Positions 5,376-27,319 of a stretch of DNA of 64,000 nucleotides are shown here, piece after piece. Numbering within the stretch: position 1 is the stretch's first letter; every line of letters begins with the position of its first letter. Location of the stretch: NCBI GenBank assembly GCA_027449605.1, contig DAIDLH010000030.1, positions 1-64,000 on the forward strand. Direction: 5' to 3'. Below the pieces are notes generated by a model. That model ran no database searches. It was not told where the DNA came from and saw nothing but the letters and a program-made list of their open reading frames with translations. Made by a program: the position numbers and the translations under genes. Origin of the DNA: Candidatus Muproteobacteria bacterium (GTDB lineage: Bacteria; Pseudomonadota; Gammaproteobacteria; Acidiferrobacterales; Sulfurifustaceae).

Positions 5376-7111
5376 GACGCATGGAAATTTTTGCAACGAC
5401 TTCGAGGGCCCTGGCCGCGCTGATGTTCGTCGCGCAGCTGGCCGGCTGCCAAACGGTTTCACCGGGCTGGCGGGATTCGGTGAGCGCGAGCGTGGATGAC
5501 GGCCTGTCGCAGGCGCGCGTCGGCAAGGACGGCAAGTCGGTGCCGGCGGAAGTGAATCGCGCATTGATGCCGCCGATCGAAATCAATCTCCCGCAGGGCG
5601 GCGCGGTTCCGCTCGAACCGCGCTTCGATCTCACCGTGCACAACGCGCCGGCGCGCCAGGTGTTCATGGGCCTGGTCGAGGGCACGCCGTACAGCATGAT
5701 TCTGCCTCCGGATGTGCATGGGACGGTGTCGCTGAACCTGAAGGAAGTCACGGTGCCGGAGGCGCTTAACGCCATCCGCGACGTTTACGGTTACGAGTAC
5801 CGTCGCGACGGCAACCGCTTCTTCATCCTCGGCAACGACATGCAGACGCGCATGTTCCCGGTGAACTATCTCAATCTTTCGCGCAAGGGCATGTCCGACA
5901 CGCGCGTGGCCGCCAGCGGCCTGAACACCACCAGCAGCGCGAGTTCCACGGGAGGAGCCGTCGCGTCGTCCTCGACCTCGATCAGCGGCGTGCAGATCCA
6001 GACACAGACGCAGGCGGATTTCTGGAAGGACTTGACCGCCGCGTTGACGGCGATCATCGGCGCCGACGGCGGAAGAAAGGTGATCGTCAACGCCGATGCC
6101 GGCCTCGTGCTGGTGCGCGCCATGCCGGACGAGTTGCGGCTGGTGGCGGATTACCTGGGGGCGACCCAGACGAGCATGAACCGCCAGGTGATACTCGAGG
6201 CCAAGATACTCGAGGTCCAGCTCAAGGACGGTTTCCAGAGCGGCATCAACTGGGCCGGCATCGCCGAGTCCAACGGCCGGAGCTATACGATAGGCCAGGT
6301 CGGCGGCGGCACGTCGCTCGGCAAAACCGGTGTGAGCGAAATCGCCGGCAATACCGGAAATATTAATCAAGGAGGAAACAGTCTGTTTGGTGCTGTGGCA
6401 GGAACTAATACAGTGGTCGGTGCCACACCTTCGGTTCCCGGTACCAACGTCTCCGCCTTCGGCGGCGTGTTCACGCTGGCGGTCAAGTCGAATAACTTCG
6501 CGGCGTTCTTCGAGCTGCTCAAGACGCAGGGCGACCTGAACGTGCTCTCCAGCCCGCGCGTCTCGACCATGAACAACCAGAAGGCGGTGATCAAGGTCGG
6601 CACCGACGAGTTCTTCGTGACCAAGCAGGACACAACCGCGGCCGCGACTCTGACTACTCAGCCGACCGTGACGACGCAACTCTCGCCGTTTTTCTCGGGC
6701 ATCGCGCTGGATGTGACGCCGCAGATCGACGACGCCGGCAACATCACTCTGCATATCCATCCGTCGGTGAGCGACGTGACGGAGAAGAAAATCTCGATCG
6801 GCACGATTCAGCCCATCTCGACCGCCTCCAGCAGCGTTCAGGAATCGGACAACATCGTGCGCGCCACCAGCGGGCAGATCATCGTGATCGGCGGCCTGAT
6901 GAAGGAGGCCAGCACCGACGATAACGCTTCGGTGCCGATCCTGGGAGACATTCCGCTGATCGGCAACCTGTTCAAGCACAAGAAGGTGACGCGCATCAAG
7001 CGCGAGCTGGTGATCCTGCTCAAGCCGACCAACATCAACGGCGGTCAGGACTGGAGCGACGCGGCCGGCGAATCGCAGGAGCGCATCCGCAAAATCCGCG
7101 TCGGCTCCTGA
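5372..7111 (+). CDS. mshL: MSHA secretin MshL
   Basis: An outer-membrane secretin of 579 residues. A lipoprotein signal with lipobox LAGC (Cys26) is followed by a secretin N0/STN-like domain (FDLTVHNAPARQVFMGLVEG), N1-type domains, a Ser/Thr-rich linker (about 185-205), and the secretin C domain (about 330-560). The C domain carries FELLKTQGDLNVLSSPRV and the pore-end motif VPILGDIPLIGNLF. Multimers should form the gate through which the pilus leaves the cell. Translational overlap with mshK and the nearby mshM point to one operon. Confidence 0.92.
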   Translation: MRRMEIFATTSRALAALMFVAQLAGCQTVSPGWRDSVSASVDDGLSQARVGKDGKSVPAEVNRALMPPIEINLPQGGAVPLEPRFDLTVHNAPARQVFMGLVEGTPYSMILPPDVHGTVSLNLKEVTVPEALNAIRDVYGYEYRRDGNRFFILGNDMQTRMFPVNYLNLSRKGMSDTRVAASGLNTTSSASSTGGAVASSSTSISGVQIQTQTQADFWKDLTAALTAIIGADGGRKVIVNADAGLVLVRAMPDELRLVADYLGATQTSMNRQVILEAKILEVQLKDGFQSGINWAGIAESNGRSYTIGQVGGGTSLGKTGVSEIAGNTGNINQGGNSLFGAVAGTNTVVGATPSVPGTNVSAFGGVFTLAVKSNNFAAFFELLKTQGDLNVLSSPRVSTMNNQKAVIKVGTDEFFVTKQDTTAAATLTTQPTVTTQLSPFFSGIALDVTPQIDDAGNITLHIHPSVSDVTEKKISIGTIQPISTASSSVQESDNIVRATSGQIIVIGGLMKEASTDDNASVPILGDIPLIGNLFKHKKVTRIKRELVILLKPTNINGGQDWSDAAGESQERIRKIRVGS

Positions 7112-7143
7112 AACATGACATCCACGGGAAGCAGGTGACAGAA

Positions 7144-8088
7144 ATGTACGGAACGCATTTCGGACTGCAGGAACTGCCGTTCACCATCACGCCGGACACG
7201 AGCTTTTTCTTCGCGCATTCCTCGCACCAGGAGGCGCTGAACACGCTGTTGGTGGCGGCGCGCAGCGGCGAGGGCTTCATGAAGGTGACCGGCGAAGTCG
7301 GCACCGGCAAGACTCTGCTGTGCCGCAAGTTCATGGGCTCGCTGGATCACCGCGAGTTCGTCACCGCCTACATTCCCAACCCTTACCTGCAGCCGATGAC
7401 GCTGCTGTTCGCCGTGGCCGACGAGATCGGCATCAAGTATCCGCAGCACATCAACCAGCATCAGCTGCTCAAGCTGCTGAACCGCTATCTCATCGACGCT
7501 TATGCCGAAGGCAAGCGCGTGCTGGTGTGTCTGGACGAGTCACAGGCGATTCCGCTCGAAACGCTGGAGAGCCTGCGGCTGCTGAGCAACCTCGAGACGG
7601 AGCGGCGCAAGCTGCTGCAGGTGGTGCTGTTCGGCCAGCCGGAACTCAACGCGCGCCTCGACAATCCGGCGATCCGCCAACTCAAGCAGCGCGTGAGTTT
7701 TGCCTGCCAACTGTCGCCGCTTTCGCTGAGCGAGGTCGAGTTCTATATTTCGCACCGGCTGGCGGTGGCGGGTTACCGCGGGCCGCGGCTGTTCGCGCAC
7801 AAGGTGGTCAAGCAGATTTATCGCGCGAGCCGGGGCATACCGCGGCTGGTCAATATCCTCGCGCACAAATCGCTCATGGCCGCTTTCGGCGAGGGCGCGC
7901 GCACCGTCGCCGAGCGGCACGTGCGCATGGCGGTGGCTGACACCGAGTCCACGCAAGGCGTGCGCGGTGTGAAGGCTAAATTGCTCAGATACCTGACGGC
8001 GCTGGCGCCGCTGGCGGTTATCGGCAGCATGACCCTCGTCAGCCTCGCGCGGTACGGCGGCGCATGGATCGCAGGCGGTTCCGTGTGA
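7144..8088 (+). CDS. mshM: MSHA biogenesis ATPase MshM (ExeA/GspA-like AAA)
   Basis: A 314-residue AAA ATPase of the ExeA family. Walker A is GEVGTGKT (about residues 50-57), Walker B is RVLVCLDE, and FGQPEL is the sensor region; a single hydrophobic segment lies near the C-terminus (LTALAPLAVIGSMTLVSLA). Family members use ATP to help assemble the secretin through the peptidoglycan. The chosen start (MYGTHFGL) matches the family N-terminus; GTG 7135 is an in-frame alternative 9 bases upstream. The stop overlaps the mshN GTG start. Confidence 0.88.
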   Translation: MYGTHFGLQELPFTITPDTSFFFAHSSHQEALNTLLVAARSGEGFMKVTGEVGTGKTLLCRKFMGSLDHREFVTAYIPNPYLQPMTLLFAVADEIGIKYPQHINQHQLLKLLNRYLIDAYAEGKRVLVCLDESQAIPLETLESLRLLSNLETERRKLLQVVLFGQPELNARLDNPAIRQLKQRVSFACQLSPLSLSEVEFYISHRLAVAGYRGPRLFAHKVVKQIYRASRGIPRLVNILAHKSLMAAFGEGARTVAERHVRMAVADTESTQGVRGVKAKLLRYLTALAPLAVIGSMTLVSLARYGGAWIAGGSV

Positions 8089-22789: not shown

Positions 22790-23240
22790 GCTCAACCGCA
22801 TAATTGCGGGTGGCTCCGCCCCTGCAACCTGGGTGACTTCTCTTTGCTCGTGCAAAGAGAAGTCACCAAGAGAAAGCACGCCCTGGTCGCTTCGCCGCCC
22901 ATACATCGGGCGGTTCCCTGTGCTCCTCGCCCGATCAGGCGCTCGCCTAACTCGCCGGGCGCTAAGAAACGCGCCTCGGGCTCGATCAGGAGTCTCGCGA
23001 CTTCCCCTGATCGCGCTGCGGTGCTCGGCTCGCGACACGGGGCTCAAGCAAACCACCTCAAATCAGTATGCGGAGGTGTTTTCAAAAGCCCGTATGGCGC
23101 GCTGCCCCTCGCCGCCGAGCGCCAGGAGCCCGAAGGGCGGCGTGAGCGCGAGGCGAGAGAGGGGTGGGAGTTGTCGCGCCATCCGGGGCGGATTTCTTTT
23201 GGTGACTTTTCTTTGTCCGTGCAAAGAAAAGTCACCTGCC
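22790..23240. repeat. Repeat element bounded by two GTGACTT..CTTTG hairpins
   Basis: Two near-identical hairpins mark the element: 22832-22867 (GGTGACTTCTCTTTG / CAAAGAGAAGTCACC) and 23201-23236 (GGTGACTTTTCTTTG / CAAAGAAAAGTCACC). The interior is rich in short inverted arms (CGGGCGG, CTGATCGCG, GGCGGCG). The open frames across it have skewed, unfamiliar composition and overlap each other, so I read this as a non-coding dispersed repeat of the kind often mis-annotated as small hypothetical genes. Confidence 0.6.
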
Positions 23241-23334: not shown

Positions 23335-23862
23335 ATGCTGACCATCGCCGACGCCGCGCCGGATTTCAACCTGCCCGGAGTCTATCAGGGCAAGACCAGG
23401 AATTATTCCCTGCGCGAGGCGCGCGGCCATTGGCTGGTGCTGTTTTTCTATCCCGCGGATTTCACCTTCGTCTGCCCCACCGAGGTCACGGGCTTCAGCA
23501 AGCTGGCCGGTGACTTCAGCAGGGAACGGGCGATGATTTACGGCGTCAGCGTCGACCCCGTCGAAAGCCACCGCTCCTGGGCCGAGGAACTGGGCGGCAT
23601 CGCCTATCCGCTGCTGAGCGACACGGACAAGACCGTGAGCCGCGCCTATCAGGTCCTGCATCCCAGGGAAGGCGTCGCGATCCGCGCGACTTACGTCATC
23701 GATCCCGCGGGCATCATCCAGTACAGCGCCGCCAGCAACATGAACGTCGGCCGCAGCGTCGAGGAGTCGTTGCGCGTGCTGCGCGCGCTGTGCACCGGCA
23801 AGCTGTGCCCGGCCGACTGGAAGCCCGGCGAGCCCACCGGCGGGCCAGAGCACAAGTACTGA
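23335..23862 (+). CDS. Peroxiredoxin (AhpC/TSA family, 2-Cys type)
   Basis: A 175-residue thiol peroxidase. The peroxidatic Cys lies in FYPADFTFVCPTE (about C47), and a C-terminal LCTGKLCPADW supplies the probable resolving Cys. The Arg/Thr environment (RATYVIDPAG) is as in AhpC/Prx1 proteins. ATG 23335 (MLTIADAAPDFNLPG) starts the conserved fold; the upstream extension comes from repeat DNA. It lies 2 bases before the VIT1-like gene, so the two are co-transcribed. Confidence 0.9.
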   Translation: MLTIADAAPDFNLPGVYQGKTRNYSLREARGHWLVLFFYPADFTFVCPTEVTGFSKLAGDFSRERAMIYGVSVDPVESHRSWAEELGGIAYPLLSDTDKTVSRAYQVLHPREGVAIRATYVIDPAGIIQYSAASNMNVGRSVEESLRVLRALCTGKLCPADWKPGEPTGGPEHKY

Positions 23863-23864
23863 TC

Positions 23865-24590
23865 ATGGCGCATCCGGTCGAGGAGAAGCGCAAGAAAATC
23901 GAAACACGCAGCCGCGTCCGCGAGTTTGTCTTCGGCGTTCAGGACGGGTTGATCAGCACCGTGGGCCTGCTCGCCGGCATGCAGGCGGCCGGGTCGAGCC
24001 GCTTCGTGATCCTCATGGCCGGCACCGCCGCGGTCTGTTCCGGCGCGTTCTCGATGTCGGCCGGGGCCTATCTTTCATCCAAGGCCGAGAAGGAAATCTT
24101 CGATCACGAGCTGGAGAAGGAAGCCAGGTTCGTCGATAGCGAACCATATCTGGCGCAGGAAGGTCTGCTCGAGGCTTTGCACCGCGAGGGGCTGACGCGC
24201 GAAGCCGGTTACCGCATCGTCAAGCTGATGCATGAACAGAAATCGGTGTTCGTGGCGACGTTCCAGGAAAAGGTGCTCGGGCTCGGCAGCGCCGACGTCA
24301 ACAACCCGGTCAAGGGCGCGCTGGTCATGGCGTTTTCCTTCGTCCTCGGCGGCGTGCTGCCGCTCGCGCCATTCGCGTTCATGCCGTTGGCGTGGGCGCT
24401 GGTGGCCGCCGTGTTGTTGACCGGCGCGGCGCTGTTCGGCGTGGGCATGTTCAAGGGCCGGCTCGCCGGCCAGCCGCTGGGGCGCTCGGGGCTGGAATTT
24501 CTTGCCATCGCGTTGATCGCCACCGGCCTGGGTTACGCCGTGGGTTTCATCCTTGAACGCTTTGCCGGAACGCCGCTGCCGGTCGGCTGA
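23865..24590 (+). CDS. VIT1/CCC1 family iron/manganese transporter
   Basis: A 241-residue membrane protein. The N-terminal REFVFGVQDGLISTVGLLAGM is the VIT1 signature, followed by SMSAGAYLSSKAEKEIF. A cytoplasmic helical metal-binding segment rich in Glu (HELEKEARF, EPYLAQEGLLEALHREG) comes next, then three more helices. Family members move Fe2+ or Mn2+ out of the cytosol. Pairing with a peroxiredoxin suggests joint defence against peroxide and free iron; this is an inference from context. Confidence 0.85.
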   Translation: MAHPVEEKRKKIETRSRVREFVFGVQDGLISTVGLLAGMQAAGSSRFVILMAGTAAVCSGAFSMSAGAYLSSKAEKEIFDHELEKEARFVDSEPYLAQEGLLEALHREGLTREAGYRIVKLMHEQKSVFVATFQEKVLGLGSADVNNPVKGALVMAFSFVLGGVLPLAPFAFMPLAWALVAAVLLTGAALFGVGMFKGRLAGQPLGRSGLEFLAIALIATGLGYAVGFILERFAGTPLPVG

Positions 24591-24594
24591 CGGT

Positions 24595-25014
24595 TCAGTT
24601 TCGCGCGAGTCCTGGCGAGATCAGACGGTCGACGATCAGGCCGTGAAAACAATCGTTGTCCGACCGGAATTCCCAGCCGAGGTGCGCGCGGCACCGGGCG
24701 CACCAGGCGATGCGCCAGGCATATCCCCGGAACCAGGTGTATTCCAGGGTTGCCGCGCCGTCAGCGGTACAGCTGGCTTCCCGGAAACAACCAATGTGAT
24801 AAGCGATGCCGTGGGGATTGGTGCAGCGGTGCTCATGCCCGCCACCGACCGCGATGCGCTGATTCAGGTGCGTGACCGGATGCCGGCAGGTCGAGCAGTA
24901 CAGGCGTTCGTCTTTTTCAACTTTGGCGTCGGTAAGCGGACGGGTTTTCGCCCGAGGCTTTTCTTCCTCGTGTGGATCGAAGAAAAGCAGGGCGGGGACG
25001 AGCGCGGAAGTCAT
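24595..25014 (-). CDS. CULT-domain protein (bacterial cereblon-like)
   Basis: A 139-residue protein. Zinc ligands are YCSTC (C40, C43) and CARC (C105, C108). The aromatic pocket motif TWFRGYAWRIAWC..HLGWEF places W94, W100, W114 and F116 with the same spacing (6, 14, 2) as W380, W386, W400 and F402 of human cereblon, and the first pair of these flank the same GYAW sequence. This is the CULT fold known from cereblon and from single-domain bacterial homologs that bind cyclic imides or uridine. It starts 11 bases after the FIST gene and should share its mRNA. The natural ligand is unknown. Confidence 0.8.
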   Translation of the reverse strand: MTSALVPALLFFDPHEEEKPRAKTRPLTDAKVEKDERLYCSTCRHPVTHLNQRIAVGGGHEHRCTNPHGIAYHIGCFREASCTADGAATLEYTWFRGYAWRIAWCARCRAHLGWEFRSDNDCFHGLIVDRLISPGLARN

Positions 25015-25025
25015 GACCGGCCTCG

Positions 25026-26141
25026 TCAGGAAAACAGGGTCAGTACCCCGGTGAAGCCGTACAGCCGGTTGTGCGATATCTCGCCGTTCGCAAAAAATCC
25101 CACCAGCGGAATTTCGCCCAGCTCCTGGCGGATGGTTTTCAGCTCCACGGAATCCTCGCCGAACATGTGCGCGCCGCGACCGAGGCAGGAATAATACACG
25201 CCGCCCTTCGGCGGCCGGCCGAGCCGCTGCCGGATTTCGTGCAGCATGCGCACCAGGTCCTCGTAGGCGGTGCGAACGTCGCGTTTGCAGAACATGATCG
25301 TGTCGCCGGCGTTCAGGTAGGCGCCGACCGCGAGCAGCTTCTGGTCCGGATCGATGCCGACCAGGTTGCGCACGATGTAATCCCCGGTGTCCGAACCCCT
25401 GATGGGAAAGCCGGCGAAGATGTAACCCGCGGCGCGCGCCGGATCGCGCGCGAGGATGTCGCCCACTTCCTCGTTGAAGACGTCCAGCGCCGGGCGGCCG
25501 TCGATGCTGACCGCGATGTTGTCGCGGCATTCGGTGATCTCGTGTTTCCGGCCGAGCGGCGTGCACCCCTGCGTCAGCGCGGTGGCGACCGTGACCCGCT
25601 CCGAGAACAGCACGCCGGAAACGCCGCCCTCGGTCAGGCCGCCGGCGATCTGGAAGTTCGCGCCGCGCGACGACGTCAGTCCGCCCACGAGAAAACCGTC
25701 GTGGATCGCCTCGGCGAGTTCGGCGATGAAGCCGGGCGTCCTCGGGTTGCGCGGGTCGCCGTGCACGACGGCGAAGTGCGCATTCGCCTGTTCGCACCAG
25801 CGGCGGCTGTCGGCGAACTCGGCGATGTCGGATTTGATCGCGGGAAAGATGTGGAACGAGTCGGGCGGGAAATCGGCGATCATCACGCTGATGGCGGGCT
25901 GGTCGTTGTACTCTTGCGACGTAGCGCAGACCGCCACGCCCACGCTTCCCACCCAGTGCTGGATGTCGGTCTGGTCCTTGAAAAATCCGAGGATTTGCGG
26001 CAGCAAGCCGGCGAGATGATCGGTGACGTAGAGAAAACCGAGATTCGCTTCCGCCGGGATGCTGCCGAGCTGGGCCAGGCACAGGTTTGCCGCCTGTTGC
26101 CAGTCCGGAGCGGTTCCGTGCGCGATGCGAAACATGTCCAT
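25026..26141 (-). CDS. FIST domain signal-sensing protein (FIST_N/FIST_C)
   Basis: A 371-residue protein with an N-terminal FIST domain (NLGFLYVTDHLAGLLPQIL, WVGSVGVAVCATSQEY, then GFLVGGLTSSRG) and a C-terminal FIST_C domain (GGVYYSCLGRGAHMFGE, PLVGFFANGEISHNRLYGFTG). FIST domains are proposed small-molecule sensors, possibly for amino acids or derivatives. No output domain is attached. ATG 26141 follows AAGGGA at good spacing; longer frames begin in the promoter zone. It is followed by the CULT gene. Confidence 0.88.
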   Translation of the reverse strand: MDMFRIAHGTAPDWQQAANLCLAQLGSIPAEANLGFLYVTDHLAGLLPQILGFFKDQTDIQHWVGSVGVAVCATSQEYNDQPAISVMIADFPPDSFHIFPAIKSDIAEFADSRRWCEQANAHFAVVHGDPRNPRTPGFIAELAEAIHDGFLVGGLTSSRGANFQIAGGLTEGGVSGVLFSERVTVATALTQGCTPLGRKHEITECRDNIAVSIDGRPALDVFNEEVGDILARDPARAAGYIFAGFPIRGSDTGDYIVRNLVGIDPDQKLLAVGAYLNAGDTIMFCKRDVRTAYEDLVRMLHEIRQRLGRPPKGGVYYSCLGRGAHMFGEDSVELKTIRQELGEIPLVGFFANGEISHNRLYGFTGVLTLFS

Positions 26142-26254
26142 CTCGATTCCCTTGATGCGCTTGTGGGCTTGGGCCACGCGGAAGCGATACTATAGACAAT
26201 CGGCGCGGCCGGGAAACCCGGGTCGCCCAAGTCATGATATAAAAAGGTGAATTT

Positions 26255-27319
26255 ATGTCTCCAGTCGCGCCCAAACGTTCGCGCAAGGCCGGTCTCCCGC
26301 CCGGCACCCCGGTGCATCTGGGCGAGCGCAAGAGCGAAACCACGCGCCTGACCATGCTGCATTACAGCGAGCAGCGCGCCGTCGAGCAGGAATTCAAGAC
26401 CGTGCCGGAGTGCCTGGCGCTGCGCGACACGCCGGGCATCAGCTGGATCAACATCACCGGCCTGCACGACGTGGAGCTGCTGGCGCAGTTCAGCAGCGCT
26501 TTCGGTCTGCATCCGCTGGTGCTCGAGGACATCCCCAACACCGACCAGCGCCCCAAGCTCGAGGATTACGGCGAATACCTGTACATCGTGATCAAGCGGC
26601 TGGGCGACCACACGCCGGCGAACGAAATCACGACGGAGCAGATCAGCCTGATCCTCGGTCGCAACCTGGTGATCTCGTTTCAGGAAAGCGACAGCGGAAT
26701 TTTCAACGACATCCGCGAACGCATACTCAACAACCGCGGCCGCCTGCGCCGGCTCGGCGCCGATTATCTTGTTTATGCGCTGATGGACACGGTGGTGGAC
26801 AACTATTTCGCCATTTTCGAAAAGCTCGGCGAGCGGATCGAAGCCCTGCAGGAGATCATCATCACCCGTCCGACGCCGGCTTCGTTGCGGACGCTGCACG
26901 CGCTCAAGCGCGAGCTGCTGTTCCTGCGCAAATCGGTTTGGCCGCTGCGCGAGGTGGTGAGCGGCCTGCAGCGCGGCGACTCGACGCTGGTGCACAAGGA
27001 CACCTGGTTCTTTTTTCGCGACGTGTACGACCACACCATCCACGTCATCGACACCATCGAGACCTACCGCGACATGCTCGCGAGCATGATGGACATCTAT
27101 CTATCGAGCCTGAGCATCCGGCTGAACGAGGTCATGAAGGTGCTGACCGTCATCGCCACGATCTTCATGCCGCTGACGTTCATCGCCGGCTTGTACGGCA
27201 TGAATTTCCACTACATGCCCGAACTGGGCTGGCGCTGGGGTTACCCGCTGGTGTTGCTGCTGATGGCGGCAGTGGCCGGGGGGATGCTGGTGTTCTTCCG
27301 CCGCAAGAAGTGGTTCTAA
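26255..27319 (+). CDS. corA: CorA-type magnesium/cobalt transporter
   Basis: A 354-residue channel protein with a large cytoplasmic N-terminal domain (HPLVLEDIPNTDQRPKLEDY, then a long stalk helix) and two C-terminal membrane helices. The signature YGMNF lies after the first helix and the basic tail RRKKWF ends the protein. It forms pentamers for Mg2+ uptake. It is transcribed away from the FIST gene, with about 110 bases between the two starts. Confidence 0.93.
   Translation: MSPVAPKRSRKAGLPPGTPVHLGERKSETTRLTMLHYSEQRAVEQEFKTVPECLALRDTPGISWINITGLHDVELLAQFSSAFGLHPLVLEDIPNTDQRPKLEDYGEYLYIVIKRLGDHTPANEITTEQISLILGRNLVISFQESDSGIFNDIRERILNNRGRLRRLGADYLVYALMDTVVDNYFAIFEKLGERIEALQEIIITRPTPASLRTLHALKRELLFLRKSVWPLREVVSGLQRGDSTLVHKDTWFFFRDVYDHTIHVIDTIETYRDMLASMMDIYLSSLSIRLNEVMKVLTVIATIFMPLTFIAGLYGMNFHYMPELGWRWGYPLVLLLMAAVAGGMLVFFRRKKWF

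Follow-up and report, generated by a model that had tools for sequence, protein, structure and literature searches.

A FIST–CULT gene pair encoding stand-alone bacterial relatives of the cereblon and FBXO22 receptor domains

A gene for a FIST-domain protein and a gene for a CULT-domain protein form a genuine co-directional two-gene unit in the 64,000-nucleotide stretch of DNA from a groundwater-type bacterium analysed here (the window), and this unit is kept in 13 genomes of two families. Each product is the free-standing counterpart of a substrate-receptor domain from a human E3 ligase, cereblon for CULT and FBXO22 for FIST, a correspondence that is new; no publication naming both domains was found with the names searched. 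The pairing is lineage-specific, vertically inherited and dispensable in either half. It is tentatively read here as a lineage-specific operon of two separate co-expressed stress or damage readers.

The locus and its surroundings

A sequence-only reading of this DNA had given the coordinates, lengths and strands of both genes correctly (Table 1). It was equally right that the CULT gene starts 11 bases after the FIST gene in the same direction and that neither product carries an attached output domain, since 11 nt containing a GAGG motif separate the genes and no additional Pfam domain scores above the cut-off in either protein. The spacing is operon-like and co-transcription is probable, with some uncertainty because a weak terminator-like hairpin overlaps the 3′ end of the FIST gene. 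SCO1 lies near the unit together with cytochrome oxidase assembly genes, as does a gene that we take, from a name read off its sequence, to encode heme O synthase. Searches for Rfam families and tRNA genes in this DNA gave no matches. Frames of 588 and 524 aa, considered as FIST–CULT fusions, were rejected as out-of-frame readings across the FIST gene.

Elsewhere in the window, a near-perfect palindrome, GGTGACTTTTCTTTGTCCGTGCAAAGAAAAGTCACC, occupies positions 23201–23236 between SCO1 and a peroxiredoxin gene and is probably a REP-like intergenic repeat. Outside the window, the source genome holds further distant FIST matches, two on contig C32 (G000:C32:991-2181) and one on contig C16 (G000:C16:7784-8143).

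Table 1. Features of the FIST–CULT locus, in window positions
Feature	Position	Strand	Remark
Convergent VIT1-family gene, its end 4 bases short of the CULT stop	23790..24590	+	true start probably inside the ORF
CULT gene (P0001), 139 aa; bacterial cereblon-type protein of one domain, with zinc site, Trp cage and N-terminal LLFFDP-type extension	24595..25014	-	
CULT W94 codon, first cage tryptophan (human W380); W100, W114 and F116 downstream	24733..24735	-	computed from gene start
Gap from FIST stop to CULT start, 11 nt, with GAGG Shine-Dalgarno-like motif ahead of the CULT ATG	25015..25025	-	
FIST gene (P0002), 371 aa, FIST_N + FIST_C, without output domain	25026..26141	-	
FIST E354 codon, aligned with FBXO22 Glu362	25080..25082	-	computed from gene start
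FIST C319 codon, aligned with FBXO22 Cys326	25185..25187	-	computed from gene start
Sigma-70-like promoter match 5′ of FIST, in and beside the divergent FIST/CorA intergenic region	26234..26263	-	consensus match only
CorA-type transporter gene, divergent neighbour	26255..27319	+	

Pocket and fold of the CULT protein, and the Cys-Glu pair of the FIST protein

The closest characterized relative of the CULT protein in the comparison is MsCI4 (MGR_0879 of Magnetospirillum gryphiswaldense, PDB 4V2Y), with which it shares the single-domain build, the zinc pairs, the tri-tryptophan cage and about 35–37% identity. Matches to PDB sequences (phmmer) lie far beyond chance for MsCI4 (E 1.6e-19) and reach E about 3e-9 for human cereblon. 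The sequence-only reading had described two CxxC zinc pairs and a cage at human spacing, and both are indeed present: the pairs are C40/C43 and C105/C108, and the cage residues W94, W100, W114 and F116 follow the 6-14-2 spacing of human cereblon and MsCI4. In the sequence alignment, N66 and H68 correspond to the NPHG motif of cereblon and E91 to Glu76 of MsCI4, whose human counterpart is Glu377. The thalidomide-binding domain of human cereblon resembles the window protein in its cage residues and their spacing, the NPHG motif, the Glu before the cage and the zinc pairs; it differs in its setting, as the window side has no LON domain, DDB1 or ubiquitin system. The cage residues also align with those of MsCI4, W79/W85/W99/Y101, which are stated to correspond to cereblon W380/W386/W400/F402 (PMC8900816). 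The last position distinguishes the two bacterial proteins, Tyr101 in MsCI4 standing against Phe116 in the window protein, as in human F402. Unlike MsCI4, the window protein also has an N-terminal LLFFDP-type extension and a FIST neighbour.

These features are shared across the family. All 64 intact CULT proteins have W94, W100, W114 and N66, at least 63 keep each zinc cysteine, and position 116 is Phe in 50 and Tyr in 14. The structure prediction that the earlier reading had called for agrees at the level of the fold: an AlphaFold2 model built on 61 CULT sequences (pLDDT 88.3, with 97–98 over the core and about 60 over the first 20 residues) has the beta-tent fold of MsCI4 and cereblon, and its top PDB match in Foldseek is ligand-bound MsCI4 (E 4e-10, rmsd 1.3–1.4 Å). 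Because both sequence and fold match MsCI4, the predicted cereblon-type drug pocket of the window protein is complete. Uridine and thalidomide are bound by MsCI4 (PMC4449219), and C-terminal cyclic imides are recognised by cereblon (PMC11974815).

The FIST protein scores 87.6 bits for FIST_N (PF08495) and 93.1 bits for FIST_C (PF10442), against curated Pfam cut-offs of 23.2 and 28.5 bits. Its AlphaFold2 model, built on 41 FIST sequences (pLDDT 92.5), has the three-repeat fold of the FIST domain of human FBXO22 (PDB 8UA3, 8S7D), four chains of which head the PDB matches in Foldseek (E 6e-12 to 3e-10) at a global TM-score of about 0.5. The window protein has no F-box, and its sequence resembles that of FBXO22 over only about 50 residues towards the C-terminus. 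Within that stretch C319 and E354 align with Cys326 and Glu362 of FBXO22 (HMMER, E 0.0027 with a single sequence and 1e-4 with a profile). Both residues are invariant in 51 FIST proteins, paralogues included, and are found in 22 of 22 members of another set of mostly further divergent sequences. Degraders engage FBXO22 through its aldehyde-reactive Cys326, to which Glu362 is adjacent; the E362A variant abolishes degrader-dependent ubiquitination (PMC13316043). The invariance of the Cys-Glu pair suggests that the site of the FBXO22 degrader cysteine has long been functional in the FIST family.

After FBXO22, the FIST model matches cyclic amide hydrolases and barbiturase, at E 5e-4 and weaker; the likeness to the Toblerone fold of cyanuric acid hydrolase and barbiturase is weak (TM about 0.36). 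Cyanuric acid hydrolase works through Ser-Lys catalytic dyads (PMC3758960), a chemistry that is absent from FIST since no lysine is conserved among the 41 sequences, and a role as cyclic amide hydrolase was rejected on both grounds.

A further possibility is that the FIST protein binds heme and reports NO or the heme state, with CULT as a passenger. This would fit the nearby cytochrome oxidase assembly genes, SCO1 and the presumed heme O synthase gene, so named from its sequence. Heme/NO sensors occur among stand-alone FIST proteins (PMC12570481, PMC8846402), and those of the NosP type have the same solo FIST_N and FIST_C build; NosP, however, is often encoded with a histidine kinase and a response regulator, both missing from the unit, where the neighbours are CULT, CorA and VIT1 instead. 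The protein also matched no NCBIfam family at E ≤ 1, and H127 (40 of 41 sequences) is the sole near-invariant histidine of the family, so that a NosP-like function appears very improbable.

Distribution and retention of the pair

CULT is present in 23 of 60 relatives, 29 of 369 genomes of the class and 21 of 398 genomes of the phylum, three survey sets that overlap; in a second class, 20 of 48 genomes carry it. The survey lies within Pseudomonadota; CULT has also been reported from deltaproteobacteria and a spirochete (PMC4287342). A contig search with a single CULT sequence matched one close relative, and no CULT relatives were found in plasmids, phages or viral contigs.

Among 68 CULT loci read with up to 7 kb of flank, 14 have FIST next to CULT. 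These loci come from 13 genomes, and only two families of the source's order are represented: nine genomes of the source's own family (f1) and four of four in a second family (f7), with gaps of 2–54 nt across the 13. The fourteenth locus (L133, G038:C28) is a second, decayed copy in an f7 genome that also has an intact one (L142); its CULT (6991–7221) contains a stop and its FIST survives in pieces (7431–7812). FIST lies beside CULT at none of 45 loci outside the order, drawn from 26 families and in several cases on short contigs, and the second class has no such case. Among the loci surveyed in Pseudomonadota, FIST–CULT adjacency is confined to f1 and f7, and it is not a general bacterial module. 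The sequence-only reading had seen in the coupling a pointer to the natural role of bacterial CULT; its proposed neighbour survey upheld the pair, in 13 genomes of two families, and did not support the wider claim, as the genes are adjacent at none of the 45 loci outside the order. FIST linkage is therefore unusable as a general clue to CULT function.

FIST proteins of the window type form a stand-alone family that usually occurs without CULT; about 79 of the 369 class genomes have a member scoring above 300 bits. Ten Gammaproteobacteria outside the order have both genes, on separate contigs or, in the one case of a shared contig (G339), some 720 kb apart. Among class genomes beyond the order, the two genes co-occur slightly more often than expected (10 of 26 against 5.5, p 0.03, uncorrected for relatedness). 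Across the order CULT and FIST are associated (13/8/3/33, p 3e-5), an association driven by shared ancestry.

Within f1 (20 genomes), the slot is flanked by CorA/HerA-type genes on one side and by cytochrome oxidase assembly genes on the other. It contains both genes in nine genomes, intact CULT alone in six (G009, G011, G012, G016, G018, G019), FIST alone in three (G006, G010, G014) and neither gene intact in two (no match in G008, a broken CULT in G017). Most single-gene slots are visible inside contigs and so are not simply assembly gaps. As either gene can occupy the slot alone, neither needs the other; the two are unassociated within f1 (Fisher p = 1.0), and neither a general nor an obligate coupling is supported. 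The f1 and f7 FISTs form one clade (95% SH-aLRT) that includes those of the FIST-only genomes, while the CULT tree is poorly resolved and does not contradict a single origin. Proteins of f7 share 40–46% (CULT) and 57–60% (FIST) identity with those of the window, and the genes upstream of the pair differ between f1 and f7.

These data bear on whether the two proteins work together. FIST and CULT, as a complex or in successive steps, could jointly detect a single class of cyclic amide or damage product; the retention of the pair in all of f7 and in nine f1 genomes despite differing upstream genes points that way, as do the order-wide association, though ancestry drives it, and the weakly raised co-occurrence beyond the order. 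Against it weigh the missing association within f1, with its six CULT-only and three FIST-only slots, and the absence of adjacency in the 45 outside loci and the ten other class genomes. Such a shared small-molecule pathway is possible in the f1/f7 lineage, neither general nor obligate, and on balance improbable. Somewhat less improbable, though still unlikely, is that the two are unrelated small cytosolic proteins under a shared promoter, with no common function, FIST having landed beside CULT in the f1/f7 ancestor. The family of this FIST is spread across Gammaproteobacteria, where it has other neighbours, for example phosphoribulokinase-family and aldo/keto reductase genes, either gene is freely lost, and in a third family (f2) CULT sits in the same slot, from rpoH to cytochrome oxidase genes, without FIST. 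Mere accident is harder to reconcile with the short co-directional gaps and with a pair conserved despite such strong divergence of both proteins.

Other CULT neighbours are lineage-specific, and no universal partner gene was found among the loci read. CULT directly follows rpoH in f2 (a neighbour in two genomes), and it neighbours TauE/SafE at six loci in five families, a rhodanese-like gene at four loci in three families and BatD at four loci in one genus. A TauE/SafE-type permease or rhodanese-like gene directly adjoins CULT at L082, L083, L092, L099, L102 and L105 and at L113, L114, L123 and L126. These two neighbours make a sulfur theme possible; together with BatD they point to no single pathway. 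At sister loci of the unit (L128, L129, L130, L148, L219), GGDEF, SpoIIE/HATPase-like and RsbR/STAS genes lie upstream of CorA-FIST-CULT and resemble a partner-switching stress module; the window's own unit (L149) has no such genes upstream. In other Gammaproteobacteria (L206, L207, L209, L218; L215, L211), FIST follows a phosphoribulokinase-family gene and/or precedes an aldo/keto reductase gene, the latter being of interest given the aldehyde-reactive cysteine of FBXO22.

Two proposed readers from one probable operon

In order of probability, separate co-expressed readers come first, followed by accidental neighbours, coupled function and a NosP-like sensor. According to the favoured explanation, which falls somewhat short of an even chance, one short transcript would yield two cytosolic binding proteins. 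CULT would be a zinc-pinned reader whose tryptophan cage most likely accommodates a ring of the cyclic imide or uracil type, for example a cyclised protein C-terminus (aspartimide or glutarimide) or a free ring compound. FIST would be a stand-alone sensor-type protein in which Cys319 and Glu354 probably sense or trap a reactive carbonyl or a comparable electrophile. Acting as separate readers of stress or damage, the two would not have to form a complex. Their arrangement would have arisen once, before f1 and f7 split, and have since been passed down vertically, one or the other gene being lost repeatedly. We infer these ligands and the stress role from the human and Magnetospirillum relatives.

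A more specific proposal is quite speculative and has little probability: a ubiquitin-free bacterial damage-recognition unit in which CULT would read cyclised protein ends and FIST would capture a carbonyl or electrophile through the universal Cys-Glu pair, ancestral functions that eukaryotes would later have built into cereblon and FBXO22 as E3 receptors.

The operon supplies stand-alone bacterial forms of the ligand-binding domains of two E3 receptors used in targeted protein degradation. With a Phe at the cage base, as in human cereblon, the window CULT protein could serve as a soaking model, where MsCI4 needs the Y101F substitution to match. The operon also bears on what bacterial CULT proteins, and FIST proteins outside NosP, bind and do in the cell.
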